Origin: Acidimicrobiaceae bacterium
GTDB taxonomy: Bacteria > Actinomycetota > Acidimicrobiia > Acidimicrobiales > Aldehydirespiratoraceae
Assembly (NCBI GenBank): GCA_028819505.1
Contig: JAPPLH010000116.1
Coordinates: 1 to 35,048, forward strand
Length of the DNA: 35,048 nt
Reading direction: 5' to 3'
The notes under the pieces were generated by a model that was given only the letters and a program-made list of their open reading frames with translations, was not told where the DNA came from and made no database searches. The position numbers were made by a program, and so were the translations under genes. Below, one piece after another: positions 3,498-27,785 of this stretch. Position 1 is the stretch's first letter; each line of letters opens with the position of its first letter.

Positions 3498-4969
3498 TCG
3501 ACCATCATCGCGCCGTCGAGCGCCGTGTAGGCGTCGCCCCTCACGATCGGCGCTCTGAGCGCCGCGGCCATCAGCAGCACCCAACTGTAGGAGAACCACA
3601 ACACGAAGCTCTCGGTCACGTTCTCCACCAGAAGGAAGGCTACGAGCGCGGCCCACATCCAAGTGTCCGCTCCAGGTCGCCGCCACAGCGCCAGACCGGC
3701 GTTGCGGGCGGCCAGGACCACTATGGCCGCGAAGGGGACCACACCCAGCAGGCCCAGGCCGAGGCCCACCTCGACCAGGCTGTTGTGGGCGCTGCCGCGC
3801 CGCAGCAGCACGTGCTGGGTCAGTTCCTCGATGTCCCAGAAGGTGAAGAACCCGTGGCCGCCCAGCGGCCGCTGGACGATCCGGTCCCAGACCAGGCTCC
3901 AGATGGTGCGGCGCTGGCTGAGGGTGGGCACGTTCCAGACCGCGACCAGGCCGGCGGCCGCGGCCACCGCGCTCGCCCCGGCCGCGGCGGCGGTCATCTT
4001 CCCGGCCTGGCTCCTGCCCCGGTGCCCGGCAGCCCGGTGGTAGACCCACGGAAGGCTCGACACCGCCAACGCGGCGATGAGCGACACCCAAGCGGTGCGG
4101 CTGCCCGCGCCGACCAGGCCCGCCAACGACGCCAGCACGAGCCCGACCGCCGCGGTCCGCTTCAGAACGTGCGCGGGTAGGTGCCAACCCGTCGCGTCGG
4201 GGCTGGGTGTTTCCCGCTCCTGTTCGCTGCGCTCACGGGCCGCTCGGGCCACGGCCTCGCCCGTATGAACCGGATTCTCGCGCCCACCCGCTCGGCCTCT
4301 GGGCAGGCGTCCGGGAGCCAGAGCGAAACGCAGCCCGGCCAGAACGCCGATCGCGGCCAGCGGGGCCAGGGAGTTGCGGTTGGTGTACACGCCCCTCCAG
4401 TAGTCGCTCGGTCCGAGACCGAGGTCTGGTCGAAGCACGACCAGCAGCAGGCTGGCACCGACCGCCGCCGCGGCCACCACGCCGATTGCGGCTGAGGTGT
4501 CGTGCGCGTCGAGCCGGGCGATCGCCCATGCCAGTAGGGCCATCCCGATGTATATGGAGGATCGCCACACGGTGGCGGTGGGATGCACGCTCCACAGCGA
4601 GGAGGCGAGCGCGGCCAGCGCGAACCAGGCCACCGCAATCGCCGCTATCCGCTCGGAGGCTTCTACCGGTCGCCGCCCCGCCCCTGACAGGTCCCATGCG
4701 GCCAGCGCGGCGCCGGCAACGGCCGCCGCGGCGAGGAACGGCCACACTGCCAGGTCCTCCCAGCGGCCGGTGCGGTCCAGCACGCTCTTGGAGAACAGCA
4801 GAACCGGACCGTTGGTGAACACGAGCAGGGCTCCCGCGGCGACCGCCGCGACCCCCCAGCGAGACCAGGTGGCGCGTCCGGCGGTTCCGGATCGTGCTTG
4901 CCGGCGAGATGAAGCGGTTCGCCTGGCGGGCTCAGACGACGCCCGCGAAGCGGAGGTCGCAGCCGTCAT
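3494..4969 (-). CDS. O-antigen ligase / polymerase-like membrane protein
   Basis: The 491-residue protein has about ten hydrophobic helices and a late conserved segment (GSAHNSLVEVGLG) that matches the Wzy_C/O-antigen ligase signature with a key His. Family members transfer or polymerise lipid-linked glycans on the outer face of the membrane. The ATG at 4969 is chosen because no good start lies between the upstream stop (4932) and the first helix; it overlaps the upstream glycosyltransferase by 38 nt. An in-frame insertion of roughly 40 residues between two helices (GRENPVHTGEAV through ERETPSPDATGWH) is rich in Arg, Glu and Ala. It coincides with a copy of a dispersed repeat (4172-4300). The position between two paralogous glycosyltransferases suggests it handles their product. 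Whether it is a ligase or a polymerase cannot be told from sequence. Confidence 0.8.
   Translation of the reverse strand: MTAATSASRASSEPARRTASSRRQARSGTAGRATWSRWGVAAVAAGALLVFTNGPVLLFSKSVLDRTGRWEDLAVWPFLAAAAVAGAALAAWDLSGAGRRPVEASERIAAIAVAWFALAALASSLWSVHPTATVWRSSIYIGMALLAWAIARLDAHDTSAAIGVVAAAAVGASLLLVVLRPDLGLGPSDYWRGVYTNRNSLAPLAAIGVLAGLRFALAPGRLPRGRAGGRENPVHTGEAVARAARERSEQERETPSPDATGWHLPAHVLKRTAAVGLVLASLAGLVGAGSRTAWVSLIAALAVSSLPWVYHRAAGHRGRSQAGKMTAAAAGASAVAAAAGLVAVWNVPTLSQRRTIWSLVWDRIVQRPLGGHGFFTFWDIEELTQHVLLRRGSAHNSLVEVGLGLGLLGVVPFAAIVVLAARNAGLALWRRPGADTWMWAALVAFLLVENVTESFVLWFSYSWVLLMAAALRAPIVRGDAYTALDGAMMVE
4172..4300 (+). repeat. Dispersed repeat copy A, inside the ligase gene
   Basis: About 129 bases match the left and middle modules of the intergenic copies at 16238 and 23565. 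The core (4212-4262) contains CTGCGCTCACGGGCCGCTCG, followed by CGGCCTCGCCCG and, after a variable spacer, CCCGCTCGGCCTCT at 4287-4300. Similarity to the copy at 23565 extends left to about 4172. The copy lies wholly inside the O-antigen ligase coding sequence and keeps its frame open. The right-hand module of the other copies (CGCGGCCCGGATC) is absent here. Confidence 0.7.
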
Positions 4970-7900
4970 GAACCTCGACGGCCTTCTCCAGGAAATACTC
5001 ATCGTCGGCCTCCCAGGTGTGTCCGCGAGCATGCCGCACCAGCAGGTAGCCGCGTCCGTGCGTGCGGTAGAGGCGGCCCCCGCCGGCCACGACGTCTCCC
5101 ATGAGGGCCCTGTCGACGCCGGAAGGCACCGGCTGCCATCCCACCACCGCGTCGAGGTCGCGGCGGGCGATGATCATCGCGCCTCCCGCCAGCGTCAGCT
5201 GCGACCCTGAGCGCTCGGCGCCGCCACGGAACCGGCGCAGGGTGCGGTCCGCTCCCTCCAGGTACACGTACTCGGCCGCCTTGCCGACCAGGGTGGCTCG
5301 GGAGTACTCGTGGGCCAGCACCAGGTCCCAGATGTGCTCCGGTCCGTAGAAGTCGTCGTCGTCGAACTTGGTGACCAACTCTCCCCGGCTGTGCTCCAGC
5401 GCCTGATTGAGCACCTCGCCCAGTACGAACCCCGCGGGCACGGTCAGGACGCGGGCATCCGTGCCGCTGCCGGCCGCCAGTGCCTCAAGTCGAGTGCGGT
5501 CGAATCCGTCGCCGTGGGCGGCCAACACCAGTTCGATGCGAGGGTAGGTCTGGGCCGCCACCGAAGCGACCGCCTCAGCCACCCGATCCGGTCGCCGGGT
5601 GGCCAGCAGCACCGACACCAGCGGCAGGGGCTCCACGTTCATCGAGGCTGCTTCGCATACCTGACGGGCTCGCGCCCGCAGCGAGTGCGTGCGCAGCGCC
5701 TCACGTCGCATCTCCACGCTCAGGGCCTCGCGCTCAGCCTCCGAGGCTGTCTCGATGCGAGGATCGGTGAGCAGGGCGAAGAGCCTCTCGCCCAGGAGTC
5801 CGGCCACCTCGACGCCGCCGTCACACAGGCGCACCACGGCGCCGTTGGCGGCGAGCGCGGCCACGGCGCCTGCTCTGGCCTGCACGTCGGCGTGATATGC
5901 GGCCACATCGGCCAAGTGGTGGTAGCGGCGCGCTCTCGCGAAGTCGGCGGCGTCCACCTTCCTGGAAACTGTGTTCCCCGTCGGCAGCAGCTTCTTGGGT
6001 CCGAGAGCGGCTGCCCGCTTCAGGGCCACGGGCCAGCGCGCGGGGTTGACCTGCTCGGCGTCGAAGGCAGGCGTCGCCGCGGTCGGTTCCATGCCGCCCA
6101 GCGAGATCACCGCGGTGCCGGCCTTTGGGCTCCACGTGCTCGGAAGGGGCCAGTCGTCACACAGCACGATCTGGGCAGGTGCCGAGGACTCGGTGCGAAG
6201 CCCCGTCCAGGCTGCGAACACCGCCGTCGACCGCGGACCGCAGGCTGCGATGGACGGACCGAGGCGATATGTGGCCGGCCGAATCGTCGTCGAGCGAGGC
6301 TGCCCCCTGGCAGCGCCGCGCACCGCGCGGGCGGCTTGGCGCATCCGCCACCGGATCTTGCGGGCGGCTCGGCGGATCCGCGACGCGGCTCGGCGCATCC
6401 GCCACCGGATCTTGCGGGCGGCTCGGCGGAATTGCAGCGCGATCCATCTCAGGCGCCAGCCCGCGGCTCGGAGCATCCATGCTCCGACGGTGCGCGCCAG
6501 CCGTGCGGCGTCGCCTGGGCTGCGTACCGAGCGCGCCTCAGCTGCGGTATAGGCGGCGATGCGACCCAACTTCCGCAGCCTGGGCAGCGGGCCCCCGTTG
6601 GCGGCGCGGGCCGGTTCCCGGATCACCTCCGGCGTGCTCGCGGGCAGGCTCTCCGGACCTAGCTGGCGCCGCCGCCGTGACAAGCTCGGCTTTTCCGGCA
6701 TGTCGGGCTTGGCTGTTTGGTCGGGCTTTTCCGGCATGTCGGGCTCGGCCGGCTCGTCGAGTTCCCGCGGCGAAGCAACCGTGTTCGTCGACGCACCGGC
6801 CGCGACAGAAGGCACTTCCCGAGCCACCCCGACACTGCCGGGGAGGTCGATTTCGGGGGTGGGGTTCGACGCCGCCTGGCGCCGCCGCAGCCTCGGTGCC
6901 AGCGTGGCCGCGGTGATCGATTCTCCGTCGAGGCCCCGTCGCAGCTCGCGGTGCAGCCTCCTGGCCCTCACCAGCAGGGCGACGCTGCCGTCGGGCTGCG
7001 ACGTAGTGGCCCATTCCGCGGTGCCCAGTCGCTTGCGGAGCCCGGACACGAGGTCGGTGGCGACGGGCGTGCCGGCCTGCACGAAGATGTGGAACTGTGA
7101 TGCGGCGAACGCGCTCGGTGCGCCGCCCCGCGGGCCGAAGCGCACCCTCGGGTCGCCCCCGAGGAGGCGTCGGGCGATCTCGGCCGCGTGGGCCTCCTCC
7201 TCGCCGGCTGGCTGCTGCTGCTCGATCCAGACGACCAGGTCGTGGACGTCGCCCGACAGGAGGCGCTCGACGGTGTCGAGTTGGCCGCCGGTGCCGGCCC
7301 CGCCGGTGTCGACGCTGACCACGTACTGGGGGACTGCGAAGCTGCGGCCCGGCCCGGCTCTCCTGAAGCCGTGGTGTGCGATCAACTGCGACAGCTTGGC
7401 CCGCTGCTGTTCAAGGCTGCGCGCCTCCGCGGGACTGGGTGCGGCGCCCTCTCCCTGGTGCCAGCAAAGCGCCCGGCGCTCGGGAACGAGGAGCGCGCCG
7501 AGCGTGAAGGCCCGGTAGCCGAACTCGATGTCCTCGGCGCCCCACTGGGTGAACGACTCGTCGTTGCCTCCGACCTCCCAGTAGAAGTGGCGCGACATCG
7601 CGAGGTTCCCGCCCGAGGCCACGCGGAACAAGTCGTCGTCGTCGGAGGTCAACTCCGCGGTGCGGGTCATGTGGGACTCGATCCATTCCGGCCGGTCCCA
7701 GGGCCGGTCGGCGAACAGTTCGTCGAGCGTTCCGCTGGAGCGACGCACATCGTCGGCCGAGACGCCGGCGACGTCGAGGTGTCGCCGGAATCCGATCGAC
7801 ACGGCGTCGCTGGCGGCGTGATGCCACCGGGCGTGGGCGGAGAGCCACTCGCGGGTGGGGATCATGTCGCAGTCGAGGAACACGACGATGTCGCCCTGAG

Positions 7901-8243
7901 CGGCGCGGGCGCCGTTGTTGCGGGCCCGGGCCAGGCCGAACCCGAGGTCGGGCTGACGGATCACACGGACGCTCAGCGGCGAACCCTTGGGCGCCTCCAG
8001 CGGCGGGTCCGACCCGTCGTCCACCACGATCACCTCGAAGAGGTGACGCGGGTAGCTCTGGCGCTCCAGGCCGGCCAGGGTGAGGGCCAGCGCGTCCGGC
8101 ACCTGGTAGTAGGGAACCACCACCGTGGCCCGCAGACTGGGCTCGAACCTCTCCAGGGAGGCCGTGTCGAGGGACTTCCAGTCGTTTCCGGCGACCCTCG
8201 CCGGCGGCGGTGCGAGAGGTGCGAACTGCCGGCTTCGAGCCAC
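4932..8243 (-). CDS. Large glycosyltransferase with two GT2 domains and a basic repeat linker
   Basis: The 1103-residue protein is a paralog of the product of 549-3497. The N-terminal GT2 domain has VVDDGSDPP, DCDM and a GAEDIEFGYR motif. The C-terminal GT2 domain has VSVLLATRRP and FDDDD at 960-964. The linker is longer than in the paralog. It holds PDMPEKP twice, then a highly basic region with tandem RKIRWRMR units (bases 6331-6430) that could form an amphipathic, membrane- or polyanion-binding helix. The GTG at 8243 is chosen because it begins the region shared with the paralog (GNDW, two SLxxxxxExFxP blocks) and sits just below a TAGGAT -10 element on this strand. An open frame continues upstream into the divergent permease gene and is rejected. 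It is the first gene of a three-gene minus-strand operon. Sugar specificity is unknown. Confidence 0.85.
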   Translation of the reverse strand: MARSRQFAPLAPPPARVAGNDWKSLDTASLERFEPSLRATVVVPYYQVPDALALTLAGLERQSYPRHLFEVIVVDDGSDPPLEAPKGSPLSVRVIRQPDLGFGLARARNNGARAAQGDIVVFLDCDMIPTREWLSAHARWHHAASDAVSIGFRRHLDVAGVSADDVRRSSGTLDELFADRPWDRPEWIESHMTRTAELTSDDDDLFRVASGGNLAMSRHFYWEVGGNDESFTQWGAEDIEFGYRAFTLGALLVPERRALCWHQGEGAAPSPAEARSLEQQRAKLSQLIAHHGFRRAGPGRSFAVPQYVVSVDTGGAGTGGQLDTVERLLSGDVHDLVVWIEQQQPAGEEEAHAAEIARRLLGGDPRVRFGPRGGAPSAFAASQFHIFVQAGTPVATDLVSGLRKRLGTAEWATTSQPDGSVALLVRARRLHRELRRGLDGESITAATLAPRLRRRQAASNPTPEIDLPGSVGVAREVPSVAAGASTNTVASPRELDEPAEPDMPEKPDQTAKPDMPEKPSLSRRRRQLGPESLPASTPEVIREPARAANGGPLPRLRKLGRIAAYTAAEARSVRSPGDAARLARTVGAWMLRAAGWRLRWIALQFRRAARKIRWRMRRAASRIRRAARKIRWRMRQAARAVRGAARGQPRSTTIRPATYRLGPSIAACGPRSTAVFAAWTGLRTESSAPAQIVLCDDWPLPSTWSPKAGTAVISLGGMEPTAATPAFDAEQVNPARWPVALKRAAALGPKKLLPTGNTVSRKVDAADFARARRYHHLADVAAYHADVQARAGAVAALAANGAVVRLCDGGVEVAGLLGERLFALLTDPRIETASEAEREALSVEMRREALRTHSLRARARQVCEAASMNVEPLPLVSVLLATRRPDRVAEAVASVAAQTYPRIELVLAAHGDGFDRTRLEALAAGSGTDARVLTVPAGFVLGEVLNQALEHSRGELVTKFDDDDFYGPEHIWDLVLAHEYSRATLVGKAAEYVYLEGADRTLRRFRGGAERSGSQLTLAGGAMIIARRDLDAVVGWQPVPSGVDRALMGDVVAGGGRLYRTHGRGYLLVRHARGHTWEADDEYFLEKAVEVHDGCDLRFAGVV
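6331..6430 (-). repeat. Tandem 54-nt repeat encoding a basic linker
   Basis: Bases 6331-6376 and 6385-6430 are nearly identical (one mismatch in 46) and 54 nt apart, an 18-codon unit. They encode repeated RKIRWRMRxAA and RIRRAA blocks, spacing Arg and Lys along what would be an amphipathic helix. The repeat is present only in the longer of the two paralogous glycosyltransferases. Confidence 0.8.
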
Positions 8244-8265
8244 GGTTGCATTATTGCCGCGACAG

Positions 8266-8281
8266 ACGATCCTAGGATCGT
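8266..8281. promoter_or_regulatory. 16-bp perfect palindrome with mirrored -10 elements
   Basis: ACGATCCTAGGATCGT is a perfect inverted repeat in the 42-bp gap between the divergent glycosyltransferase (start 8243) and ABC permease (start 8286). TAGGAT, a good actinobacterial -10 hexamer, occurs on the plus strand at 8273-8278 and on the minus strand at 8274-8269. On the plus strand the GTG follows after 7 nt, so the permease mRNA would be leaderless. On the minus strand it would leave a short leader. No strong -35 hexamer is evident on either side. It could instead be an operator; both roles are possible. Confidence 0.6.
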
Positions 8282-8285
8282 AGTC

Positions 8286-9125
8286 GTGAGCGATTCCGGC
8301 CAGCAGACGGACCAGCCGCTGGTCGACCTGACGCGGCCCTCCCCGCCCGCCGCTTATCTCGCCGAGGTCTGGCGGAGACGGGACTTCGCCATCCTGGTCC
8401 CCGTCCAGGACCTCCGGGCACAGAACATGGGATCCGCGTTGGGCCAGCTCTGGCACCTGCTGAACCCGGCATTGATGGTCGCGGTCTACTTCCTGATCTT
8501 CGGGGTGATCATCGACACCAGCCGCGGCGTGGACAACTTCCTGGGCTTCCTCATCGTCGGGGTGGTCTGGTTCCATCTCACCCAGCGGGTCGTGCAGGAC
8601 GCCGCGGTGTGCATCCCACGCAATCTGGGACTCATCCGATCCGTTCAGTTCCCCCGCATCCTGCTGCCCGCGGCGACCGTCAACGGCCAGACCGCCGCCT
8701 TCGCACCCGCGCTCGTGCTGGCCCTCGCGGCCGTGGTCGCCACCGGCGAGCGCCCGTCGCTGCGGTGGCTGGCACTGATCGGGGTGCTGGCCGCACAGTT
8801 CGTGTTCCACTTCGGGGCGGCGCTCCTGGTGGCCCGCATCGGGGCGGCAGTGCCCGACCTGCGCCAGCTGCTGCCGCACGTGTTCAGGCTGCTGTTCTAC
8901 GCCTCGGGGGTGATCTTCAGCGTCGATGCCTTCGTGACAAGCGAGTCCTGGCGTCGGGCGTTCGCCCTGAACCCGATCTACGACGTGATCACCTGCGCCC
9001 GCTGGTGCCTGCTCGGCGAGCCGGTCGACCCCTGGGTGGTGGCCGGGATGCTGGTATGGGGAGTGGTCCTGCTGGTTGTCGGATTCGCGGTGTTCTGGAG
9101 AACCGACCAGCGGCTGGGGGCGTGA
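8286..9125 (+). CDS. ABC-2 type polysaccharide export permease (Wzm-like)
   Basis: The 279-residue protein has about six hydrophobic helices after a cytoplasmic N terminus with a LRAQNMGSALGQLW segment, typical of ABC-2 permeases of polysaccharide/polyol-phosphate exporters (Wzm, TagG, mycobacterial RfbD). It should form the membrane pore that flips an undecaprenyl- or decaprenyl-linked glycan. The GTG at 8286 is chosen because a TAGGAT -10 lies 7 nt upstream; the open frame continues far upstream only as a shadow of the minus-strand gene. Its stop overlaps the ATPase start by 1 nt (TGATG), so the two are translationally coupled. It stands divergent to the glycosyltransferase/ligase operon and may share a control region with it. 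Confidence 0.88.
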   Translation: MSDSGQQTDQPLVDLTRPSPPAAYLAEVWRRRDFAILVPVQDLRAQNMGSALGQLWHLLNPALMVAVYFLIFGVIIDTSRGVDNFLGFLIVGVVWFHLTQRVVQDAAVCIPRNLGLIRSVQFPRILLPAATVNGQTAAFAPALVLALAAVVATGERPSLRWLALIGVLAAQFVFHFGAALLVARIGAAVPDLRQLLPHVFRLLFYASGVIFSVDAFVTSESWRRAFALNPIYDVITCARWCLLGEPVDPWVVAGMLVWGVVLLVVGFAVFWRTDQRLGA

Positions 9126-9871
9126 TGGACCCGGGTCGGGCGGTGACGGTGCGGGTGGACGACGCCCACGTGTACTTCCGGGTGTACGAGGATCCGGCCG
9201 CGGGCATCAAGCAGCTCTTCTCGAGCGGGCGGACCGCGCGGCGCTACCAGACCATCAGGGCCGTGCGGGGCGTGAGCCTGGATCTCCACGAGTCCGAGAC
9301 GCTGGGCCTCATCGGGGCCAACGGGTCGGGCAAGTCGACGCTGCTGGCGGCCATGACCGGGCTGCTCCCGCTGGCGTCGGGCAAGATCCTCGGCCGGAGC
9401 AGGCCGTCGCTGCTGGGAGTGTCCGCGGCGCTGCGCTCTGCTCTCTCCGGCAGGCGCAACATCCTGATCGGCGGACTCGCCCTGGGCTTCACAAGGGCCG
9501 AGGTGGAGAGCCGCATGGACGAGATCATCGACTTCGCCGGACTGCGGGCCGCCATAGATCGGCCGCTGCGCACCTACTCGTCGGGGATGAGGGCCCGTCT
9601 GAACTTCGCGATCGCCACCGCCCGGATCCCCGACATCCTGTTGATCGACGAGGCTCTGTCCGTAGGGGACCAGGGCTTCCGGGCCCGGAGCGCGGAGCGC
9701 ATCGACGAGGTCCGCTCGGCGGCCGGGTCGGTGGTCCTGGTGTCGCACAACATGGCGGAGATCGAGGAGTCGTGCGACCGCGTGGCGTGGCTCGACGCCG
9801 GCGCACTTCGGGCGGTGGGTGAACCGGGGGAGGTCGTCGCCTCCTACCTGGACTCCGACGCGGCGCGCTGA
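9125..9871 (+). CDS. ABC transporter ATPase for polysaccharide export (Wzt/TagH-like)
   Basis: The 248-residue protein has Walker A GANGSGKST at 64-72, the signature YSSGMRARL, Walker B ILLIDEAL and the H-loop VSHN. The N-terminal YFRVYED and the FSSGRTARRY segment before the core are typical of the Wzt/TagH/RfbE group. It ends right after the ATPase core and lacks the C-terminal carbohydrate-binding domain of Escherichia coli O9a Wzt. This suggests export that does not depend on recognising a capped chain end, as with TagH or mycobacterial RfbE. The ATG at 9125 overlaps the permease stop. Its 3' end overlaps the convergent glycosyltransferase gene by 28 nt. Confidence 0.9.
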   Translation: MDPGRAVTVRVDDAHVYFRVYEDPAAGIKQLFSSGRTARRYQTIRAVRGVSLDLHESETLGLIGANGSGKSTLLAAMTGLLPLASGKILGRSRPSLLGVSAALRSALSGRRNILIGGLALGFTRAEVESRMDEIIDFAGLRAAIDRPLRTYSSGMRARLNFAIATARIPDILLIDEALSVGDQGFRARSAERIDEVRSAAGSVVLVSHNMAEIEESCDRVAWLDAGALRAVGEPGEVVASYLDSDAAR

Positions 9872-14227: not shown

Positions 14228-14253
14228 GAAACCACCGTCTTCTGCCGACGCCC

Positions 14254-14276: not shown

Positions 14277-14346
14277 CCGGTCCCGTGAAGCGGACGGTAG
14301 CGGTGTCGGCGGCCGCTCTCACTCCAACGCCCCGCCGGTGACGGGC

Positions 14347-14433
14347 GCCGAGCCGCCCGGAGGGCCGAGCAGCCACAGTGCCGAGCCGCCCGAGGGCCGA
14401 GCAGCCACAGTGCCGAGCCGCCCGAGGGCCGAG
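14347..14433. repeat. Intergenic tandem repeat, 32-33 nt units
   Basis: Two full units (14347-14379, 14380-14411) and a partial third (14412-14433) are almost identical, built on GCCGAGCCGCCCG and GCAGCCACAGT. They fill much of the 218-bp gap between the end of the biotin carboxylase gene and the start of the SLH gene. The units abut with no spacers, so this is not a CRISPR array. No function is apparent. Confidence 0.8.
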
Positions 14434-14445
14434 ACGCGCGTGCGC

Positions 14446-16233: not shown

Positions 16234-16237
16234 GTCG

Positions 16238-16390
16238 TTTCCCGCTCTTGTTGCTGCGCTCACGGGCCGCTCGGGCCACGGTCTCGCTCAGCGCCTCGCA
16301 GATCCTAGTTAGGCGCGGCTGATCCGCTCGGCCTCTGGCGAGAACATCACCGCATCGGACAGCCGGTCGCGGCCCGGATCACACGGAATG
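16238..16390 (+). repeat. Dispersed repeat copy B, upstream of accA
   Basis: This copy fills the gap between the GT-C gene stop (16404) and the accA start (16233). It has the core with CTGCGCTCACGGGCCGCTCG (one base shorter before it than copies A and C), the CCGCTCGGCCTCTGG module near 16324-16338 and the right module CGCGGCCCGGATCACAC near 16368-16384, shared with copy C. All three modules are in the same order and orientation as in copy C. Confidence 0.75.
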
Positions 16391-16403
16391 TCCTCCGATG
16401 CCG

Positions 16404-18008: not shown

Positions 18009-18058
18009 CGCGGGCGCTCCCCGGCGTTCATCGGGTCGCCCGGCATCGCCGGTTCCCG

Positions 18059-18064
18059 ATCATA
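18059..18064 (-). promoter_or_regulatory. -10 element TATGAT for the GT-C gene
   Basis: On the minus strand TATGAT lies about 50 nt before the TTG start at 18008. This would give a leader of some 44 nt that contains GGGGAG as ribosome binding site. No convincing -35 is seen. Confidence 0.45.
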
Positions 18065-18160
18065 AAGCCGCAGGTCAGAAGGATGCGAATCTCGCCAAAC
18101 CCGCACTCTCAGCATCCTGTCGGTGGTGTGTCGCCTGAACGGACAGTGGTCGTCGCGGAC

Positions 18161-18191
18161 TGGATCGGGGCACGGGCACCGCCCCGATCCA
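18161..18191 (-). terminator. Strong hairpin downstream of the Uma2 gene
   Basis: TGGATCGGGGC (18161-18171) pairs perfectly with GCCCCGATCCA (18181-18191) around a 9-base loop. It begins about 70 nt after the Uma2 stop on the minus strand and lies before the GT-C promoter. It would insulate the two genes. There is no T-tract after it, so it may be a U-less terminator or an mRNA-stabilising hairpin. Confidence 0.5.
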
Positions 18192-18262
18192 CCGCCGGTC
18201 GATTCTCGCATCCCGGGCCGGGGTAGTGCAACTTGTCGCCGAGCGCGGGTGCGGCGAACTGG

Positions 18263-19054
18263 TCAGGAGGTGCGGCCCAGGCGGTCCCGGAGCTCGGCGA
18301 GCTCTGCTTCGGCGGCCTGTCGGGCAGCGGACTCCTGGGCGAGTTCTGCTTCGGCGGCCTGTCGGGCGGCGGATTCCTCGGCGAGTTCTGCTTCGGCGGC
18401 CTGTCGGGCGGCGGATTCCTCGGCGGCCAGGGCGGACTGTTCGGCGAGGTCGTCGGGGTCGGGGAGCCATGCGCCCGCCGACAGGTCCCACAGCCGCAGC
18501 TTGGGCGGGCGCCAGCACAGGTCCAGGCCCAGCGCGTCGCTGCGGCCCCGCAGCCCGTCGCCGTCGGGCGCCACGTCGATCGGCGTCCAGCGTCCGGCCC
18601 GGCGCCGTTCGCCCTGCAGCGGCGGGTCCAGCAACTCCCCGCCGGTGGGGTCGAGCCGCCAGTACTCGTCCACGCCGAGTTCGGCGTACTTGTCCGGCTT
18701 GACGTACAGGTCGGTGCGCAGCGTCTTCGGCGACGCGATCTCCAGCGCGAAGCACGGCGCCGTGCCGGCCTCCCACACCTTGTAGACGCTCTTGTTCTCG
18801 ACTGCGGCCACGTCGACGCCGAACGCCACGGCTATGTCGGGCGCCACCACCACTCTGGGGTCGCCCTGCTTGTAGTACACGTTGATGTCGCAGCACACCC
18901 ACGCGTCCTCTGTGTCGCCGCGGCCCGCGTACCAGTGCCGCAGCGCCAGCAGCAGGTCCACGCTCCGGCGCAAGTGCATGTCGCCCTCGGGCACCTTCGG
19001 ACCCTCCGGATACTCGATGTCAACCTCGGGAGGCCTTGTCATCATCGATGTCAC
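18263..19054 (-). CDS. Uma2 family (DUF820) nuclease-like protein with coiled-coil tail
   Basis: The 263-residue protein has a Uma2/DUF820 core, a PD-(D/E)XK nuclease-like fold: APDIAVAFG supplies the PD, ALEIASPKT the E-x-(K-like) strand, and KPDKYAELGVDEYWRLDP is the family signature. The C terminus is three 14-residue repeats of ESAARQAAEAELAx, a predicted coiled coil. The start GTG at 19054 has an excellent Shine-Dalgarno (GGAGGTG, 7-nt spacing); ATGs at 19045 and 19042 are alternatives. Uma2 proteins are often in many copies per genome and their biological role is not settled. It stands alone between hairpin 18161-18191 and a divergent GT2 gene. Confidence 0.85.
   Translation of the reverse strand: MTSMMTRPPEVDIEYPEGPKVPEGDMHLRRSVDLLLALRHWYAGRGDTEDAWVCCDINVYYKQGDPRVVVAPDIAVAFGVDVAAVENKSVYKVWEAGTAPCFALEIASPKTLRTDLYVKPDKYAELGVDEYWRLDPTGGELLDPPLQGERRRAGRWTPIDVAPDGDGLRGRSDALGLDLCWRPPKLRLWDLSAGAWLPDPDDLAEQSALAAEESAARQAAEAELAEESAARQAAEAELAQESAARQAAEAELAELRDRLGRTS
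18299..18424 (-). repeat. Three tandem 42-nt repeats in the Uma2 gene
   Basis: Units at 18299-18340, 18341-18382 and 18383-18424. The last two are identical over all 42 bases; the first differs at four. They encode three 14-residue heptad-pair units of a coiled coil. Perfect identity at the DNA level points to recent expansion, with copy number likely to vary between strains. Confidence 0.88.
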
Positions 19055-19422
19055 GAGCGCACACCTCCGATCGCCCACGGCGACATTACCCCCACCCCGG
19101 ACACCCCGCAACCGGCAATCACGAAAATACATGTGAAATCCACACAACAGAAGTGTCGGCAGCACATGTTCCCCGCGGGCGGCAGCCGGCCCGGACACTC
19201 GGCTGGGCGAGACGGACCACCACCGCCCCTGCCATGCGCACGTCTCCGACCGCGTGGAGCGGGAGCGTCCGCCGGCTGCTGGTCGCCGGCTCGGGCGCCC
19301 GGCTCGGACGTGGGCGTGGCGCCCGCGTCCGACTGCGCAGCATGATGCGGAGCGCGATCTCGGCGGGTCCAGCCCGACAGTTCACAGGATTTCTTCCGCC
19401 GGCAGGCCGTAGGCTGTGGCGC
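19055..19422. other. 368-bp divergent intergenic region
   Basis: The region separates the Uma2 gene (minus) from the GT2 gene (plus). Bases 19120-19165 are relatively AT-rich and hold ACATGTG and CACATG; these could be the Uma2 promoter area. The rest is GC-rich and open in several frames, but none has a plausible start, ribosome site and recognisable product. The last bases hold the GT2 promoter. I see no RNA gene. Confidence 0.5.
19411..19416 (+). promoter_or_regulatory. -10 TAGGCT for a leaderless GT2 mRNA
   Basis: TAGGCT is followed after exactly 7 nt by the GTG start at 19423, the same spacing as at 8273-8286. Transcription would begin at or next to the start codon. No Shine-Dalgarno is present, which agrees with leaderless initiation. 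Confidence 0.5.
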
Positions 19423-20148
19423 GTGAGCGCCTCGGACGGCTGCCTCTCGGTGGTGATGCCCTGCTACAACGAGGCCGCCACCGTCGACGAGATCGTCTCC
19501 AGGGTGCTCGCCAGTCGCTTCGCCGGCGAGCTGATAGTGGTGGACGACGGTTCGACCGACGGAACCCGCGATCGGCTGTCCAAGTACGACGATCCTCGTG
19601 TGACGGTCCTGCTGGAGCCCGAGAATCGCGGCAAGGGCGCCGCGGTGCGGCGTGGCTTCGCCGAGGCGAGCCGCGAGTTCGTGGTGATCCAGGACGCCGA
19701 CCTCGAGTACGACCCCGGCGACTGGGACGCGCTGCTCGCGCCCCTGGCGAGCGGCGACGCCGACGTGGTGTACGGAACCCGCATGCAGGAAGGCCCGGCG
19801 CACAGGGCGCCGTACTACTGGCACATGATCTGCAACCGGATGCTGACACAGCTGTCGAACATGGTCACCGGCGTGCGCCTTGCCGATGTGGCGACCTGCT
19901 ACAAGGCGTTCCGCCTCGAGGTCGTGCAATCCCTCGACCTGCGCGAGAACCGCTTCGGGATCGACATGGAGATCACCGCGAAGGTGGCCGCCGGAGGCTG
20001 GCGCATCTGGGAGACCGGCATCTCCTACACGAGCAGGAACTATGCCGAGGGCAAGAAGATCACGTGGAAGGACGGCATCGCCGCCTTCGTGTGCATCTGC
20101 CGCTACGCGGTCTCGGAGCGGGTTCGCAGAATCGGGGGGAACGCCTGA
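19423..20148 (+). CDS. GT2 glycosyltransferase, Dpm1/polyprenol-phosphate type
   Basis: The 241-residue protein is a single GT-A domain without obvious membrane helices. It has LSVVMPCYNEAATVDEIV at the N terminus, VVDDGSTDGTRD, NRGKGAAVRRGF, the QDADLEYDP metal-binding motif and ENRFGIDMEITAKVA. These are the marks of the DPM1/DPG synthase group, which loads a sugar onto polyprenyl phosphate, and of close relatives with other acceptors. The GTG at 19423 begins at the conserved domain edge and fits the -10 spacing; the frame is open further upstream but without coding character. It may supply lipid-linked sugar to the GT-C enzyme at 16404. It converges on the epimerase gene with a 13-bp gap. 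Confidence 0.85.
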   Translation: MSASDGCLSVVMPCYNEAATVDEIVSRVLASRFAGELIVVDDGSTDGTRDRLSKYDDPRVTVLLEPENRGKGAAVRRGFAEASREFVVIQDADLEYDPGDWDALLAPLASGDADVVYGTRMQEGPAHRAPYYWHMICNRMLTQLSNMVTGVRLADVATCYKAFRLEVVQSLDLRENRFGIDMEITAKVAAGGWRIWETGISYTSRNYAEGKKITWKDGIAAFVCICRYAVSERVRRIGGNA

Positions 20149-20161
20149 CCGGGCTGAGTCT

Positions 20162-21292
20162 TCAGCCGTCGACCCAGTCGGCGAGAACCTCGAGAATCTC
20201 CTGGGACGGGCTTGACTGCGGCAGCCTCCGCGCGTGCCGGAAGCGTTCGGGGTCGGCCAGGAACGCCTCCACCGCTTCGGGGTCGTAGCGGCTCAAGACG
20301 GCGTTCTCGCCGAGGCCGTCGGCCCGGTCGGTGCGGTCACGCCACAGCAGCACCGGCACCCCCAGCAGAGCGCACTCCTCCTGGATGGAGCCCCCGTCGG
20401 TGATCGCGAACGGCGCCCGTGCGAGCGCCCTCACGAACTCGGCGTGAGGGACCATCGTTACGAGCTCCACGCCGGAGGCTTCAAGGCCGGCTTGTTCTGT
20501 GGCCCCGAGCGCCCGTCGTGTGGGCTCGTGTACGTACCAGCGCACCGGAGTCGTCTGCGCCAGCCGCGTGATCGTGTGCACCAGCGCCTGCCTCCGCGGT
20601 CGCCGGTGCAGGTTCTCCACCCGGTGCATGGTCACCACCACCGGGTGCGGCCGGCGCGGCGAGCTGTGCGAGTGAGCGCCTCCCGACATGTCAGGCGCCG
20701 TCGGCGCACCTGCCGCGCCCGACTCCAGGGCGGCGCGCAGCGCATCGCTGATCGTGTTGGACGATCCGGTGATGATCCGCCCTCTGACGCGGCGCTTGCG
20801 CAGGTCCTCGGCTGCTGTGCCGTCGGGCGCGAAGAGCAGGTCGGCGAGTCGGTCGACGGCAACCCGGACGATCTCCTCCGGGAAGGGATGCAGCCACCGG
20901 TGGGTGCGAAGGCCCGCTTCGACATGCGCCAGTGGCAGCCCCGCCCGCTTCGCCATGAGCGCGCCGATCAGCGCCGTCGGCGTGTCGCCGTGAACCACGC
21001 AGATGCCCGGGCAGCCGCCGAAGACGGTCCGGTCGAGCCGCCGGCGCAGCGCCAGCTTGAGGCCCAGTCCCGCCGCCCACCACAGAGCCGCAGGCACCGA
21101 GTCGACGCTGCGAGTGCCGCCCATCGCGTGGTCGGGCGCCCGCAGGCCCAGCTCATGGCGGAACGACTCCGACCGGTCGGCGTGCTGCCCGGAGTCGATC
21201 AGGCGGTAGGGGAGGCAGGCCGCCTCCATGCGCCGCAGCAGCGGCGCCAGCTTGATGTACTCGGCCTGGGTGCCGATGAAGACGTGGATCAA
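20162..21292 (-). CDS. UDP-GlcNAc 2-epimerase-like protein (WecB family)
   Basis: The 376-residue protein has the GT-B type epimerase fold: VHGDTPTALIGALMA, HVEAGLRTHRWLHPFPEEIVR, ITGSSNTISDAL, HRVENL and DGGSIQEECALLGVPVLLWRDRTDR. WecB converts UDP-GlcNAc to UDP-ManNAc. The usual GTRPE motif at the N terminus reads GTQAEYIKL, so the Arg normally near the nucleotide is missing. The usual PE after the Arg-rich loop reads ADGLGENAV. The substrate may therefore differ from UDP-GlcNAc. The TTG at 21292 gives a 4-nt TTGA overlap with the stop of the gene upstream and starts directly on the first strand of the fold. It is the third gene of a three-gene minus-strand operon. Confidence 0.8.
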   Translation of the reverse strand: MIHVFIGTQAEYIKLAPLLRRMEAACLPYRLIDSGQHADRSESFRHELGLRAPDHAMGGTRSVDSVPAALWWAAGLGLKLALRRRLDRTVFGGCPGICVVHGDTPTALIGALMAKRAGLPLAHVEAGLRTHRWLHPFPEEIVRVAVDRLADLLFAPDGTAAEDLRKRRVRGRIITGSSNTISDALRAALESGAAGAPTAPDMSGGAHSHSSPRRPHPVVVTMHRVENLHRRPRRQALVHTITRLAQTTPVRWYVHEPTRRALGATEQAGLEASGVELVTMVPHAEFVRALARAPFAITDGGSIQEECALLGVPVLLWRDRTDRADGLGENAVLSRYDPEAVEAFLADPERFRHARRLPQSSPSQEILEVLADWVDG

Positions 21293-22293
21293 GGCTCTGC
21301 GCCGTCCGGACGCCGCACCGGGCCCGCTTCGGCCCTCGCGCGCCTCGACGCGTCGAGCTCCGAGACGGCCGCGGCCAGCAGGTCGCGCAGCAGCAGCACC
21401 AGCCTGAACCCGAATATCAATATGCCGAGAGCCAGGGGATCGGCTGCGCCGAGCAGTGACGGAACGGTCACCTCCACCACGCCGATTCCCTGCGGCGCGA
21501 TCACAGAAAGGAACCGCAGGCCTCCCCAAGTGAGCACGAAGGCACCGGCGAGGTGGGCAGTCCCGAAGTCGTCGGCGGCATCGAAGGCGCGCATGTACAG
21601 GCAGAACACGGCGGCTGCACAAGTCCAATAGCAGGCCGATGCCGCGATCATGTGCAGGTAGCCCCGCCACGTGAATCCGCTGACCGAGGCCAGGCTGTCC
21701 AGGCCGCGCCGCCGGGCCACCGCCGCGACGGCCCGTCCCCCCACCGACGGCGAAGCGGCGACGATCACCCCCACCGCTGCGACGAACGGGATCGCGAGGC
21801 CTCCCGGCAGTTCGCCGGCCCACCCCAGCAGCACCAGGCCGTAGGCCACCGAGACGGCGAGGCTGACCGCCATCTCGAGTGCCGCGGTGAGGGCGAGAGG
21901 CCCCCCCGGAACGCCGCGGCGCTGCATCAGAGCCACCCGGCTGACCGCGAAAGTGACCATCAGCGGCACGTACCTGGCCGGCAGGGAACGAGCCGCGGTG
22001 ACCGTCAGGTCGCGGAAGAGCGGGCGCTGGCCGAGCAAGTGCAGGCTCACGAGCCAGAAGTACGCGCTCAGCGCTATCAGCACGAACCCGGTCACGAACG
22101 ACGCCGCCACGAGAGCGTGCGTCGCGCCCGCGAGGTCTCCGATCAGGTCGGCCACTTCGTCCCGGCGCGCCAGCACGAGCACGGGCACGGCGGCGGCGAG
22201 CAGGGCGAGGTATGCGATTCTCATCCATCTCAAGAGGCGTCGCTGCCACGGGCGGCCTGTCGTCGGGCGGGGTGGCTCGGGGCGGCCTGTCAT
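21289..22293 (-). CDS. LPG-synthase-TM (UPF0104) family membrane protein
   Basis: The 334-residue protein has about eight hydrophobic helices, with SLPARYVPLMVTFAVSRVALMQRRG and the late APQGIGVVEVTVPSLLG segment typical of the family that includes the MprF flippase domain and AglD. Members are thought to move lipids or lipid-linked sugars across the membrane. The ATG at 22293 lies inside a 30-nt tandem duplication, giving an N-terminal TGRPEPPRPT/TGRP stretch. An ATG at 22224 just before the first helix is a good alternative. Its stop overlaps the epimerase TTG. Context points to transport of a lipid-linked glycan intermediate, but the substrate is not shown. Confidence 0.75.
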   Translation of the reverse strand: MTGRPEPPRPTTGRPWQRRLLRWMRIAYLALLAAAVPVLVLARRDEVADLIGDLAGATHALVAASFVTGFVLIALSAYFWLVSLHLLGQRPLFRDLTVTAARSLPARYVPLMVTFAVSRVALMQRRGVPGGPLALTAALEMAVSLAVSVAYGLVLLGWAGELPGGLAIPFVAAVGVIVAASPSVGGRAVAAVARRRGLDSLASVSGFTWRGYLHMIAASACYWTCAAAVFCLYMRAFDAADDFGTAHLAGAFVLTWGGLRFLSVIAPQGIGVVEVTVPSLLGAADPLALGILIFGFRLVLLLRDLLAAAVSELDASRRARAEAGPVRRPDGAEP

Positions 22294-22310
22294 CGGGCGG
22301 GGTGGCTCGG
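22251..22310 (-). repeat. Two tandem 30-nt units over the start of the LPG-synthase-TM gene
   Basis: 22251-22280 and 22281-22310 differ at one base. That base turns the ATG start codon in the second unit (22293) into ACG in the first. The duplication therefore copied the start codon, and one copy has since been lost. Confidence 0.85.
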
Positions 22311-22315
22311 AGTGG

Positions 22316-23536
22316 CTACAACTCTGCGTCAGCAGATGACTGGATCAGCTCGAGCAGGTCGTCGAGCGCGGCGTCGTTGACCTTCAGGCGCTCACGCAGC
22401 AAGCCGCGCGCCTCGCCTGTCCGGCGCGACTGGTCCTGCGCCTCGGTCGCCGCGTCGATCAGTGTGCGGGGCTCGAAGCGCCCAGCGTCGAGCGGAGCCA
22501 AGTCGACGAGTGAGGCCCAGCCGCCGCCCTCGGCGGCGAGCGATCCCATTTTCGGAGAGTAGTCCAGCACCACCGCCGCCTGACCGTTGAGCAGAGCGGC
22601 AACGGCGCCGTGATAGCGCATGGTTACCACGAAGCGACTCCGGGCGACCTCGGCTAGCACATCCTCGATGTCGAGCACGACTATCTCGGCGTCCGTTCGC
22701 ATCTGATGTTGCAGCGCCGCGAGCATGGGGGCGTCCTGGCTCGGCTGGAAGGGCAGCAGGCGCAACGCCATGCCGCTGCTCTCGGCCAGCGCGTCCAGAG
22801 CCCGCGCCAGTTGACCCGTCCATGGCTGCCAGGACGTGCGGGCCTTCGCCGCGGCCGTGCGGATGCCCCGGCGATTCGGGGGGCGCAGGATCACGCAGAC
22901 AGTGTCGGTTGCGCCGCTGCTAGAGGGCGGCACGCCCGTCAGCCTCGGCGGCCCAGAGTGCGGCGGCAGGGTCGCAGCCGTCCGGCTCGAGACGAGCGCG
23001 GCGTCTCCGGCCAGCACCGGGTCGGCGCCGACCGCCACGCCGGGCACGCCCCAGTCGCGCAGGCGATTCGCCGAGGCGGCGTCCCTCGTGACGACACGGC
23101 AGGCCCGGCGCATCTCTGAGACCGCCATGCGCCGGTTGCCGGCGCCCCGGACGTGTCCCGTTCCCAGGCCGACGGCCGCGAACGCGGCCCGCGCCGGCCC
23201 GTGGGTGGACGCCGCCGGCACCGACCGCCGGTAGGCGCGGGGGCGCGACATGTGGAACCACATGTTCCACGGCGACGTCTCCGACTGCACCACCCCACCG
23301 GAGATGACCATGGCGTGCGCACTGCGCAGCGACCGGCGCAGCGCCGCGCCGTCCAGGGGCGAGCGATGAGCCACCGCCTCGATGCCATGGACAGCGGCAG
23401 TCCGCTCGGGATCGATCGACACGGCCAGCGGCGCCACCCCACGGGCGCGCAGGGCGGAGACCATGCATCTCAGAATCATCTCGTCTCCCAAGTTGTCCGA
23501 CCCGTACCAGCCGGCAAGGGCGATCCTCAGGGCCAT
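22316..23536 (-). CDS. Polysaccharide pyruvyl transferase (CsaB-like)
   Basis: The 406-residue protein has the family's N-terminal GWYGSDNLGDEMIL and the middle VISGGVVQSE, then VTRDAASANRLRDWGV and VGADPVLAG. Late in the sequence come VTMRYHGAVAALLNGQAAVVLDYSPKMGSLA, a GT-B-like fold with the conserved RxHG. These enzymes transfer a ketal-linked pyruvate from phosphoenolpyruvate to a sugar of an exported polymer. CsaB does this to the wall polymer that binds SLH domains. The ATG at 23536 is preceded by GAAGGAGG about 11 nt upstream. It is the first gene of an operon with the LPG-synthase-TM protein (22-nt gap) and the epimerase. The SLH protein at 12251 could bind the product. Confidence 0.85.
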   Translation of the reverse strand: MALRIALAGWYGSDNLGDEMILRCMVSALRARGVAPLAVSIDPERTAAVHGIEAVAHRSPLDGAALRRSLRSAHAMVISGGVVQSETSPWNMWFHMSRPRAYRRSVPAASTHGPARAAFAAVGLGTGHVRGAGNRRMAVSEMRRACRVVTRDAASANRLRDWGVPGVAVGADPVLAGDAALVSSRTAATLPPHSGPPRLTGVPPSSSGATDTVCVILRPPNRRGIRTAAAKARTSWQPWTGQLARALDALAESSGMALRLLPFQPSQDAPMLAALQHQMRTDAEIVVLDIEDVLAEVARSRFVVTMRYHGAVAALLNGQAAVVLDYSPKMGSLAAEGGGWASLVDLAPLDAGRFEPRTLIDAATEAQDQSRRTGEARGLLRERLKVNDAALDDLLELIQSSADAEL

Positions 23537-23564
23537 AGCAGGAGCAGCCTCCTTCGAGGACCCG

Positions 23565-23769
23565 CGCGGGCATGCAGACCTGTCGCATCGAGGCGGGGTG
23601 CCTCCCGCTCTTGTTCGCTGCGCTCACGGGCCGCTCGGGCCACGGCCTCGCCCGCATGCAACAGATTCACTCGCCTACCCGCTCGGCCTCTCGGTGCTTG
23701 TCAAGCCATGAACTTACCGTGTGCCTGGGGGCACCGGAGAGCCGATCGCGGCCCGGATCGCACAGAATG
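23565..23769 (+). repeat. Dispersed repeat copy C, in a divergent intergenic region
   Basis: This is the fullest copy. It lies between the divergent pyruvyl transferase (start 23536) and biotin ligase (start 23776) genes. Left part 23565-23600 resembles 4172-4211; the core holds CTGCGCTCACGGGCCGCTCG and CCACGGCCTCGCCCG; the middle has CCCGCTCGGCCTCT near 23678-23691; the right module 23739-23769 (GCGGCCCGGATCGCACAGAA) matches copy B. The right end includes the putative -10 of the biotin ligase gene. Confidence 0.75.
23763..23768 (+). promoter_or_regulatory. -10-like CAGAAT for a leaderless birA mRNA
   Basis: CAGAAT is followed after 7 nt by ATG 23776. The hexamer is the last part of dispersed repeat copy C, which would make the repeat the promoter donor. 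There is no Shine-Dalgarno. Confidence 0.35.
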
Positions 23770-23775
23770 GGCCTA

Positions 23776-24585
23776 ATGGGATCGGTCACGCCACGGTCGC
23801 GGTCGGCCGGCAGGCAGCTGCCGCTCGGCTGTGCGGCAGCTCGCCGCGCCGGGCTGGGCGAACTGCGCCACACCGTCGAGACGGGCTCCACCAACGACGA
23901 CCTGGTCCGGGAGGCCCGACTCGGGGACCGCTCGCCGGCTGTCCTGGTGGCCGACCACCAGACCGCGGGAAGGGGTCGGCTGGGGCGTCGCTGGTCCGAC
24001 GCGGCCGCCGGCCCCCACGCCGGTGAGGCGTCGCTGCTGGTCAGCTTCCGGCTCGTGGTGCCCGTGGCCGGCGCGTTCGACCGGACCGCCGCGGTCTCGG
24101 CCGCCGCGCTCCTGGCCGTGTCGGGCGCACTTGCCGGCTCCGGAGCGGCGGTGCGGTCCAAGTGGCCGAACGACTTGCTCATCGAGTCTCGGGACGCGTC
24201 CGGCAAGTTGGCGGGCGTGCTGTCGGAGATCGTCGACGGCGAACCCTCGCTGGTGGTGGTCGGTCTGGGCCTGAACATCGCGGAGGCGCCACCGGCGCCG
24301 GGGGCGGCCTCGCTCGCTCAGGCGGGCGGCACAGCCACCCGCGACGAGCTCCTGGCGTCGCTGATCGACGCCCTGCCCGGCTACCTGGCCGACCCCGGGC
24401 GGGCCCGCGAGGACCTGAGGGCCGCGTCGGCGACGCTGGGGAGGCAAGTGAGGGTCCAGCGCACCGACGGCACGTCGATCGTGGGCACGGCCGTCGATGT
24501 CGACGGCTCAGGCCGCCTGGTCGTCGCCGGCGATTCCGGCGAGGTCGCGATCGGCGCTGGAGACGTGTTCCACCTGCGTTCCTGA
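23776..24585 (+). CDS. birA: Biotin-[acetyl-CoA carboxylase] ligase
   Basis: The 269-residue protein joins biotin, via biotinyl-AMP, to the carrier Lys of biotin-dependent carboxylases. It has the catalytic-domain marks GSTNDDLVREA, the biotin/ATP loop TAGRGRLGRRW, KWPNDLLIE, GKLAGVLSE and VVVGLGLNI, and a C-terminal SH3-like domain (RTDGTSIVGTAVDVDGSGRLVV). There is no N-terminal DNA-binding domain, so it is a class I ligase and not a repressor. The ATG at 23776 is chosen for the -10 spacing; ATG 23767 is an in-frame alternative. Its likely substrate is the product of 14446-16233. Confidence 0.92.
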   Translation: MGSVTPRSRSAGRQLPLGCAAARRAGLGELRHTVETGSTNDDLVREARLGDRSPAVLVADHQTAGRGRLGRRWSDAAAGPHAGEASLLVSFRLVVPVAGAFDRTAAVSAAALLAVSGALAGSGAAVRSKWPNDLLIESRDASGKLAGVLSEIVDGEPSLVVVGLGLNIAEAPPAPGAASLAQAGGTATRDELLASLIDALPGYLADPGRAREDLRAASATLGRQVRVQRTDGTSIVGTAVDVDGSGRLVVAGDSGEVAIGAGDVFHLRS

Positions 24586-24595
24586 CGGGAGACAC

Positions 24596-24690
24596 AGAGG
24601 CCGAGCGGGCAGGCGGGGAGTCCGGCGCCCTACGAGCGAGGCCGCGGCCCGATCGGCCCGCAGGTCGCAGCGGACAGGCGCGGGTCGCGG
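24596..24690 (-). repeat. Dispersed repeat copy D, diverged and inverted
   Basis: Between the biotin ligase stop and the LCP gene, the minus strand carries the CCCGCTCGGCCTCT module (24609-24596), a CCGCGGCCTCGCTCG block and a CGGGCCGATCGGGCC block in the same order as the core of the other copies, with more mismatches. The spacing between modules matches copy C closely. The right module is not found. Confidence 0.55.
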
Positions 24691-27762: not shown

Positions 27763-27785
27763 AGCCTGCTCGGCCTCCGGGCCGA

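Follow-up and report, generated by a model that had tools for sequence, protein, structure and literature searches.

The window, by which we mean the whole 35,048-nucleotide stretch of DNA analyzed here, carries four copies of one repeat, and profile searches recovered all four with E values from 3.5e-43 to 1.4e-10. Copy 1, a full element of type A on the plus strand (positions 4164 to 4300; E = 3.5e-43 over 4146 to 4317), consists of a left arm (4164 to 4210), a core unit (4211 to 4250; family consensus TTCCCGCTCYTGTTCGCTNCGCTCACGGGCCGCTCGGGCC), and a middle part with the right end, which runs to GGCCTCT at 4300. In its terminal stem, positions 4173 to 4183 pair with 4281 to 4291, as read from the sequence, the stem of 49 copies, and a single-copy fold. 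Copy 2 is a full type B element located at the accC start (16194 to 16336, plus strand; E = 1.5e-37 over 16179 to 16357), and its core (16239 to 16277) is one base shorter. Copy 3, again of type A, lies upstream of bpl (23557 to 23691, plus strand; E = 6.9e-40 over 23541 to 23709) and has its core at 23602 to 23641. Downstream of bpl, copy 4 is degenerate, without a recognizable left arm (24596 to 24685, minus strand; E = 1.4e-10 over 24577 to 24685). Blind repeat finding paired copy 1 with copy 3 at 86% across 122 nt and matched copies 1, 2, and 3 over a 35-nt core at 97 to 100%. The sequence-only reading had the four copies, their strands, the core strings, and the constant order right, and no tRNA was detected, as it had held, but its copies 1 to 3 began too far to the right; the limits given here for these three were read by us from aligned ends, the starts being approximate. 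Additionally, comparison of orthologous loci identified 27764 to 27783 (plus strand) as the right-end remnant of a fifth, deleted copy, at a locus where one core is kept in genome G013 and two cores in genome G010.

A right module shared by copies 2 and 3 had also been counted as part of the repeat, and this did not hold. The module is a site beside the biotin genes accC (16358 to 16390) and bpl (23737 to 23769), both copies on the plus strand and outside the repeat. It occurred exactly twice in the whole genome (control, 0) and was retained in relatives whose locus is empty of the repeat. The accC/bpl site is a warning that conserved regulatory sites adjoining such repeats can pass for repeat modules.

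The family comprises hundreds of intergenic copies in this genome and belongs to uncultured actinobacteria, some of them sponge derived. A genome-wide pattern search found the core at 239 places with at most 3 mismatches in the window's own 3.73-Mb genome and the reversed pattern at none; thus, the idea that there might be only four copies fails. The search of relatives that had been proposed at the outset located the core in 15 of 16 genomes of the genus, at 16 to 286 places each; G005 was without an exact core, and the copy number ranges from 0 to 286 within the genus. Across the order the core was patchy (10 of 198 genomes), the carriers including all four sampled members of one genus in another family; the repeat-bearing relatives include members of the genus itself, of genus g2, and of g68, a genus in family f59. 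In a second family, a mismatch-free core is flanked by different arms. Viral contigs gave no exact match to the 29-nt core pattern, plasmids gave no match to the one copy used as a query, and a search of openly accessible literature did not find a description of this repeat. The full element measures approximately 135 to 150 bp and is built from a left arm (approximately 60 nt), a strongly conserved core (approximately 40 nt), which is sometimes tandem at steps of 43 to 57 nt, and a right arm with a sharp end at GGCCTCT, while the left boundary is diffuse. Core-only or partial forms also occur in the whole-element profile, from which the left-arm counts were taken.

The copies avoid genes: only 9 of 46 overlapped predicted genes by at least half, against 86.3% expected at random (P = 3.5e-24, with a home-made gene caller). 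This location between genes, in either orientation, argues against a peptide-coding insert like the Rickettsia palindromic elements, an explanation that we find hardly credible. The EAER..RARPWPERP phrase noted earlier is indeed readable in copies 1 and 4, the two that we translated, but the substitutions in 314 cores gave no sign of selection on a protein. Among type A copies the frame of this phrase is open in 37 of 49 and among type B copies in 19 of 30, and another frame is about equally open (38 of 49 and 19 of 30), as expected at approximately 70% GC. In the frame of the phrase the cores showed 68 synonymous and 252 changing substitutions (75 and 244 expected), that is, no deficit of changing substitutions. 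A synonymous excess did appear in frames +2 (182 versus 113 expected) and −1 (170 versus 107 expected); however, it was driven by two variable sites, and with these and an edge site removed the three codon phases carried 67, 66, and 46 changes by our count, while the −1 frame gained 17 stops where 8 were expected. The synonymous-site test and the open-frame count led us to reject the coding reading.

The ends of the element form an imperfect inverted repeat, in which two pairs clearly covary among 49 copies. Paired cells in the terminal stem of these copies numbered 768, whereas 500 shuffles averaged 749.5 and reached 765 at most. One stem pair was formed in 47 of 49 copies versus 40.5 in shuffles and the adjacent pair in 40 versus 35.8; however, most pairs did not exceed the shuffles, pair 23-123 was worse (43 versus 45.1), and the covariation is partly borne by subfamilies. 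In another genus the stem GCGGGTAGG/CCTACCCGC is replaced by GCGGATTGA/TCAATCCGC in G016 and by GCGGATTGC/GCAATCCGC in G140. The consensus folds were not beyond all column shuffles, either for type A (−69.6; shuffle mean, −62.9; best, −71.7) or for type B (−43.9; mean, −35.3; best, −44.4). Folded singly, two copies did not outperform their shuffles in energy (z, −1.16 to +1.66), a first RNAalifold run gave little signal, and an earlier duplex-energy test of arm pairing was weak, with equally good shuffles in 318 of 2,000 cases for type A and 41 of 2,000 for type B.

These folds bear on the suggestion, also made from the sequence alone, of a repeated regulatory or structural RNA. Cis-acting structured RNAs (terminators, attenuators, or riboswitches) expanded in number would account for the paired ends and the location between genes, and by eye the right end of some copies lies directly at a stop codon. 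However, the shuffle-like fold energies speak against such RNAs, the orientations of flanking genes with respect to the element (13/12/12/9) are like the background (81/77/77/54), with no fixed orientation, and the same genes stand without the element in relatives. Rfam at the gathering threshold gave no match to the element in the window; at permissive settings, 11 foreign loci gave nothing credible and one window copy gave one subthreshold match (14.3 bits versus a gathering score of 50) at 4147 to 4163, just outside the element. We consider this explanation very unlikely.

Presence of the repeat differed at orthologous sites of related genomes. The profile gave 201 hits in 2.4 Mb, and for 29 filled entries, about 23 loci by eye, the ortholog was near-empty or shorter. 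Within the window, the repeat is absent at the copy 2 site in G010, G006, G013, and G015 and at the copy 4 site in G010, G006, G013, and G008, while the copy 3 site is filled in G013 and near-empty in G010. Elsewhere, the site CGCCAT^GGYTAAA is filled in G009, G010, and G013 and empty in G006 and G011, and GGCAT^CTGGGG is filled in G009 and empty in G011. Several of the empty sites retain repeat-like sequence, and deletion is therefore also common; at most loci the direction, gain or loss, is not proven, and recombination that swaps alleles could look like either.

Such frequent differences, together with the range from 0 to 286 copies within one genus and the lack of an exact repeat in G005, weigh against a chromosomal protein-binding site (for the nucleoid, segregation, or recombination) whose core is under selection and was spread by recombination, with the arms as accessories. 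Conservation of the core would suit such a site. It is overstated in the 314-core and type A sets, because many of the former and 30 of 49 rows of the latter came from loci fetched by a core match, and we measured it again on contigs chosen by length or synteny, where the core was ungapped in 68 of 74 profile hits with a median of 1 mismatch per 38 nt. The mismatch-free core in two families with differing arms points the same way, as do the CGCTC motifs that, by eye, recur within the core with about helical spacing and the same-orientation runs seen on some contigs, with 36 of 54 adjacent pairs on the same strand. However, a hand count among exact core matches placed 18 of 31 adjacent pairs on the same strand, and no link to GC skew was seen, on which ground a replication-strand signal was also rejected. 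A binding site of this kind seems improbable to us.

The suggestion of a non-autonomous mobile element, in contrast, is supported by the high copy number, the lack of coding capacity, and the filled versus near-empty orthologous sites, and further by the locus with one versus two cores and the core-only or partial forms. We regard the family as probably (at about 0.72) a modular non-autonomous mobile repeat, BOX-like in build, that is moved in trans by candidate machinery. A narrower form of this reading, whose odds overlap with it, is a classical miniature inverted-repeat transposable element (MITE), derived by deletion from a DDE-type insertion sequence (IS) and bearing matched terminal inverted repeats along with target-site duplications. 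Bacterial MITEs are likewise short, noncoding, intergenic, and present in many copies with inverted ends, and the length of approximately 140 bp and the presence/absence differences fit as well. Junctions were resolved for 24 of the 29 entries (all except 16, 24, 63, 125, and 174), and 11 of these were dropped by eye (15, 35, 76, 83, 88, 89, 153, 178, 179, 183, and 191), their empty side still bearing repeat sequence, having a deletion, or failing to align; entries 178, 183, and 191 compared two-core with one-core copies. At the 13 cleaner junctions (12 loci, since entries 145 and 152 are the same locus in two genomes), the script gave overlaps of 6, −2, 6, 0, 1, 1, −2, 11, 4, −2, −3, −4, and −6, and by eye the values 6 (entry 60) and 11 (entry 158) stem from likeness to the repeat itself. 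A direct repeat of 6 bp, CGAGAA, lies at the copy 2 junction and one of 4 bp at another junction, but target-site duplications had no common length. The comparison of orthologous gaps proposed in the sequence-only reading yielded filled and near-empty sites but not a common duplication. Additionally, the outer ends are asymmetric by eye (AGARCGTSC versus AGAGGCCGA), and we judge a classical MITE to be unlikely. No parental IS came to light.

Our survey of a subset of transposase families did not find a mobilizer, and a longer element sharing these ends did not turn up either. The Y1 family of IS200 and RAYT (PF01797) was not detected in any of the 16 genus genomes, the control set being positive in 5 of 14 genomes, and reverse transcriptase (PF00078) was present in only 2 of 16 (G006 and G002) and not in the window's genome, making reverse transcription unlikely as the mover. 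The Y2 family of IS91 type (PF04986) was found in 0 of 16, but the control set was silent too, which makes this zero uninformative, and IS110 (PF01548) reached an E value of ≤0.001 in 7 of 16 and passed the cutoff in 2, with none in G000. The Y1 and reverse transcriptase counts argue against REP/BIME-type repeats moved by RAYT or IS200/IS605 (Y1) and against retrotransposed copies. REP/BIME are high-copy, short, palindromic, intergenic repeats without duplication, and the present family resembles them in these features, in its paired ends, and in having one sharp and one variable end; in a fold of one core, a stable hairpin was not apparent (z = +1.20 and +1.66). We see little chance for this explanation.

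If the family is a mobile repeat, the element would insert between genes, oriented either way, and would often be lost again or left as fragments. Encoding nothing, it would need trans-acting machinery, which may recognize the paired ends together with the strongly conserved core and would move the element without a regular target-site duplication; core-only copies may alternatively spread via slippage or recombination. We infer that movement is as DNA, that the core is the recognized sequence, and that a host-encoded mobilizer lies elsewhere. More tentatively, and with low confidence, the core might be the putative recognition sequence of a mobilization system beyond Y1/RAYT, reverse transcription, and duplication-forming DDE enzymes, one that would insert small modular DNA with no target duplication and would have kept the core constant in at least two families of Acidimicrobiia, even as the paired arms were exchanged. 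The unchanged core between differing arms in two families leads to a testable prediction of a shared recognition factor: this trans factor should track the repeat through the 15 genus genomes, g2, and g68 of f59 and be missing or changed in G005.

The spread of BOX- and MIRU-like repeats is an old question, to which this family adds a case. As described in PMC3049150, BOX of Streptococcus pneumoniae is composed of boxA, a variable tandem boxB, and boxC, sometimes as lone modules, with more than 100 strain-variable copies and a predicted fold to which boxB contributes little; BOX-type families of S. suis share boxB within different end modules. The same paper gives BOX terminal inverted repeats, target-site duplications, and ends similar to ISSpn2. 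The likeness to our family, judged on architecture alone, lies in the A-Bn-C module order with a variable tandem core; the regular duplication and partner IS, both features of BOX in that description, were not found here. Additionally, our family differs in its GC-rich actinobacterial host, its common core-only copies, and its mismatch-free core in two families. The mycobacterial MIRU are actinobacterial and intergenic, with tandem units of approximately 40 to 100 bp at gene junctions, and against this general description our family is alike in host phylum, placement, and tandem units, whereas MIRU are not known to have paired end arms or a core common to several families. The copies described here alter regions around gene starts and ends in an uncultured actinobacterial lineage, and some contig ends also carry copies of the repeat.

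The repeat is a real high-copy family whose presence varies between related genomes. The sequence-only reading had described four copies in the window, and all four were recovered: copies 1 to 3 (4164-4300, 16194-16336 and 23557-23691, all plus strand) by a blind repeat search of the window, and copy 4 (24596-24685, minus strand), which is degenerate, by the profile, which nevertheless matched it with E = 1.4e-10. In the blind search, copies 1 and 3 aligned over 122 nt with 86% identity, and a 35-nt core was common to copies 1, 2 and 3 at 97 to 100% identity. The family extends well beyond these four copies: in the genome to which the window belongs (3.73 Mb in 167 contigs, the window being contig 63), the 21-nt core with up to three mismatches was found at 239 places (115 + 124), with 0 for the reversed control, and BLAST with copy 3 gave at least 43 matches (the best 40 of 327 candidates were scored). 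Copies also lie within 50 bases of the start of contigs C12, C137, C142 and C165 of this genome, and because of this position the repeat may have caused the assembly breaks there. High copy number and a presence that differs between related genomes both support the earlier suggestion of a non-autonomous mobile element, which we consider the most likely reading, with a probability of roughly 0.7, although the odds of its rivals partly overlap.

In the aligned copies, a left arm (about 60 nt) with a diffuse left boundary is followed by the core TTCCCGCTCYTGTTCGCTNCGCTCACGGGCCGCTCGGGCC, a middle part that comes in two lengths (types A and B) and a sharp right end, GGCCTCT. The core was ungapped in 68 of the 74 profile hits obtained from 1.74 Mb of contigs chosen for length or synteny, with a median of 1 mismatch in 38 nt and 16 exact matches; variation per core site among these hits had a median of 6%, with two sites at 34% and 29%. 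Both ends were present in 32 of the hits, the right end only in 16, the left arm only in 7 and neither in 19. Across 49 copies of type A, the variable fraction averaged 29% in the left arm, 13% beyond the core and 5% in the core, the last value being biased low because 30 of the 49 were fetched in a way that favors a conserved core. A stem between the element ends gave 768 paired cells in the same 49 copies, compared with a mean of 749.5 and a maximum of 765 in 500 shuffles; clear covariation was seen in two neighboring pairs, while most pairs did not exceed the shuffles and one was worse. The stem is often GCGGGTAGG/CCTACCCGC in the window's genus and GCGGATTGA/TCAATCCGC or GCGGATTGC/GCAATCCGC in two genomes of genus g2 (G016 and G140, respectively), so that the letters differ but complementarity is kept. 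In another family, f59, some copies have core units in tandem at 57 nt, and the core is the same as in the window's genus with different arms; this unchanged core in two families is the most interesting and least explained feature of the repeat.

Presence and absence were compared at orthologous sites. The related genomes G009 and G011 share 92% identity along 70.5 kb; here two full copies of G009 stood opposite near-empty sites in G011, one of which itself holds GCTCGGCCTCTCAG, resembling the repeat's end. In a set of 201 hits from 2.4 Mb of own and related sequence, partly fetched for containing the core, 29 entries (about 23 loci by eye) had a near-empty or shorter ortholog with flank identity of at least 86%. 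Copy 2 is present in the own genome, G008 and G004 and missing from G010, G006, G013 and G015, while copy 3 is present in the own genome and G013, with a near-empty site in G010 and a deletion there in G015 and G006. The locus at window position 27764 carries two cores in G010, one in G013, only a right-end remnant in the own genome and nothing in G006. Three genomes (G009, G010 and G013) carry a copy at the site CGCCAT^GGYTAAA, which is empty in G011 and G006; since these states split the close pairs G009-G011 and G010-G006, the pattern reflects exact loss, replacement of the allele or repeated targeting. A script resolved 24 junctions, of which 13 (12 loci) were clean enough to use, and target-site duplications of a common length were not found across them. 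The proposed comparison of orthologous gaps yielded filled and empty or near-empty sites but not a constant duplication. A core-only copy (L016, contig C25) has the 12-nt direct repeat AGCCTATCGCCG on both flanks and, by eye, an adjoining tRNA-like stretch.

The copies are largely intergenic: 9 of 46 overlapped predicted genes by at least half, compared with 86.3% of random placements (P = 3.5e-24), with genes taken from a home-made caller that makes some visible errors. With respect to the genes on either side, the orientation counts of the copies (13/12/12/9) resembled those of all intergenic gaps of at least 60 bp (81/77/77/54), and no link was found between repeat orientation and GC skew. 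Adjacent nontandem pairs lay on the same strand in 36 of 54 cases over all contigs, a tendency that was weaker in a hand count on exact core matches (18/31). Long one-orientation runs (L061-L067 and L072-L091) were seen on C167 (13 of 14 plus), C35 (6 of 6 minus) and C91 (two plus, then seven minus). Y1 transposases (RAYT, IS200/605) were found in none of the 16 genomes of the genus, in a search whose control worked; reverse transcriptase was found in 2 of the 16, and IS110 in 7 at E ≤ 0.001, in 2 of them above its own cutoff. A 29-nt core pattern was not matched exactly anywhere in viral contigs, and a plasmid search with one copy of the repeat gave no match.

With up to two mismatches, the core occurred in 15 of the 16 genus genomes, own included (16 to 286 places each; none in G005), in 1 of 9 other genomes of the family, each from a different genus, and in 1 of 16 from the order's other families. 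Of 198 genomes sampled from the order, 10 contained a 32-nt core with up to three mismatches, with controls of 0 throughout; counts were 182 in the own genome, 32, 19 and 2 in genus g2, 18, 51, 24 and 16 in genus g68 of f59, and 4 and 1 in two further genomes. At least 80 core matches were obtained in the named collection, and the titles among the matches listed were Acidimicrobiia, Acidimicrobiaceae, Acidimicrobiales or Microthrixaceae metagenome genomes, except for one of the 80 that read "bacterium" only. The jk18x bins are described as originating from Ircinia sponges (PMC9531527). In G005, which lacks an exact core, the interval between the biotin carboxylase and biotin protein ligase genes (L123) contains a stretch distantly like the repeat, GGCTGCGCTCACAACAGCG ... 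GCGGCCTCTAG, which may represent a sister family that has diverged.

A description of the repeat was not found in the literature searched. Pneumococcal BOX elements are described as having a middle module, variable in its number of tandem units, flanked by end modules, and as occurring also in the form of single modules (PMC3049150); the repeat has the same modular architecture. Unlike BOX, for which target-site duplications are a described feature (PMC3049150), the repeat has no regular ones. By analogy it would work like a BOX element, but because it lacks a regular duplication and the likeness is drawn from architecture and not module sequence, we do not class it as BOX.

A 33-nt stretch (16358-16390 and 23737-23769) had been assigned to the repeat as its right module. 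This assignment did not hold, as the stretch occurs exactly twice in the whole genome (control, 0) and lies between the biotin genes of relatives in which this interval is free of the repeat. Its neighbors are a biotin carboxylase with a biotinyl domain (accC) and a biotin protein ligase (bpl), which are adjacent and divergent in G001, G007, G009 and G011, with one 33-nt site and no repeat between them. This candidate regulatory site is most likely a promoter or operator that accC and bpl share, with a copy probably retained beside each gene as some 7 kb came to separate them. In the window, this block (16404-23536) parts the two genes, with a biotin site at each end; it includes polysaccharide pyruvyl transferase and mannosyltransferase-like genes and is not between accC and bpl in G001, G004, G007, G009, G011 and G012.

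Other repeats in the window included two large genes (549-3599 and 4932-8879) assigned by Pfam to glycosyltransferase family 2, with blocks 72 to 83% identical in the blind repeat search; the pair is an old duplication. A short tandem repeat at 18293-18425 has three copies with a 42-nt step, and a tandem array at 14357-14436 has a 16-nt step.
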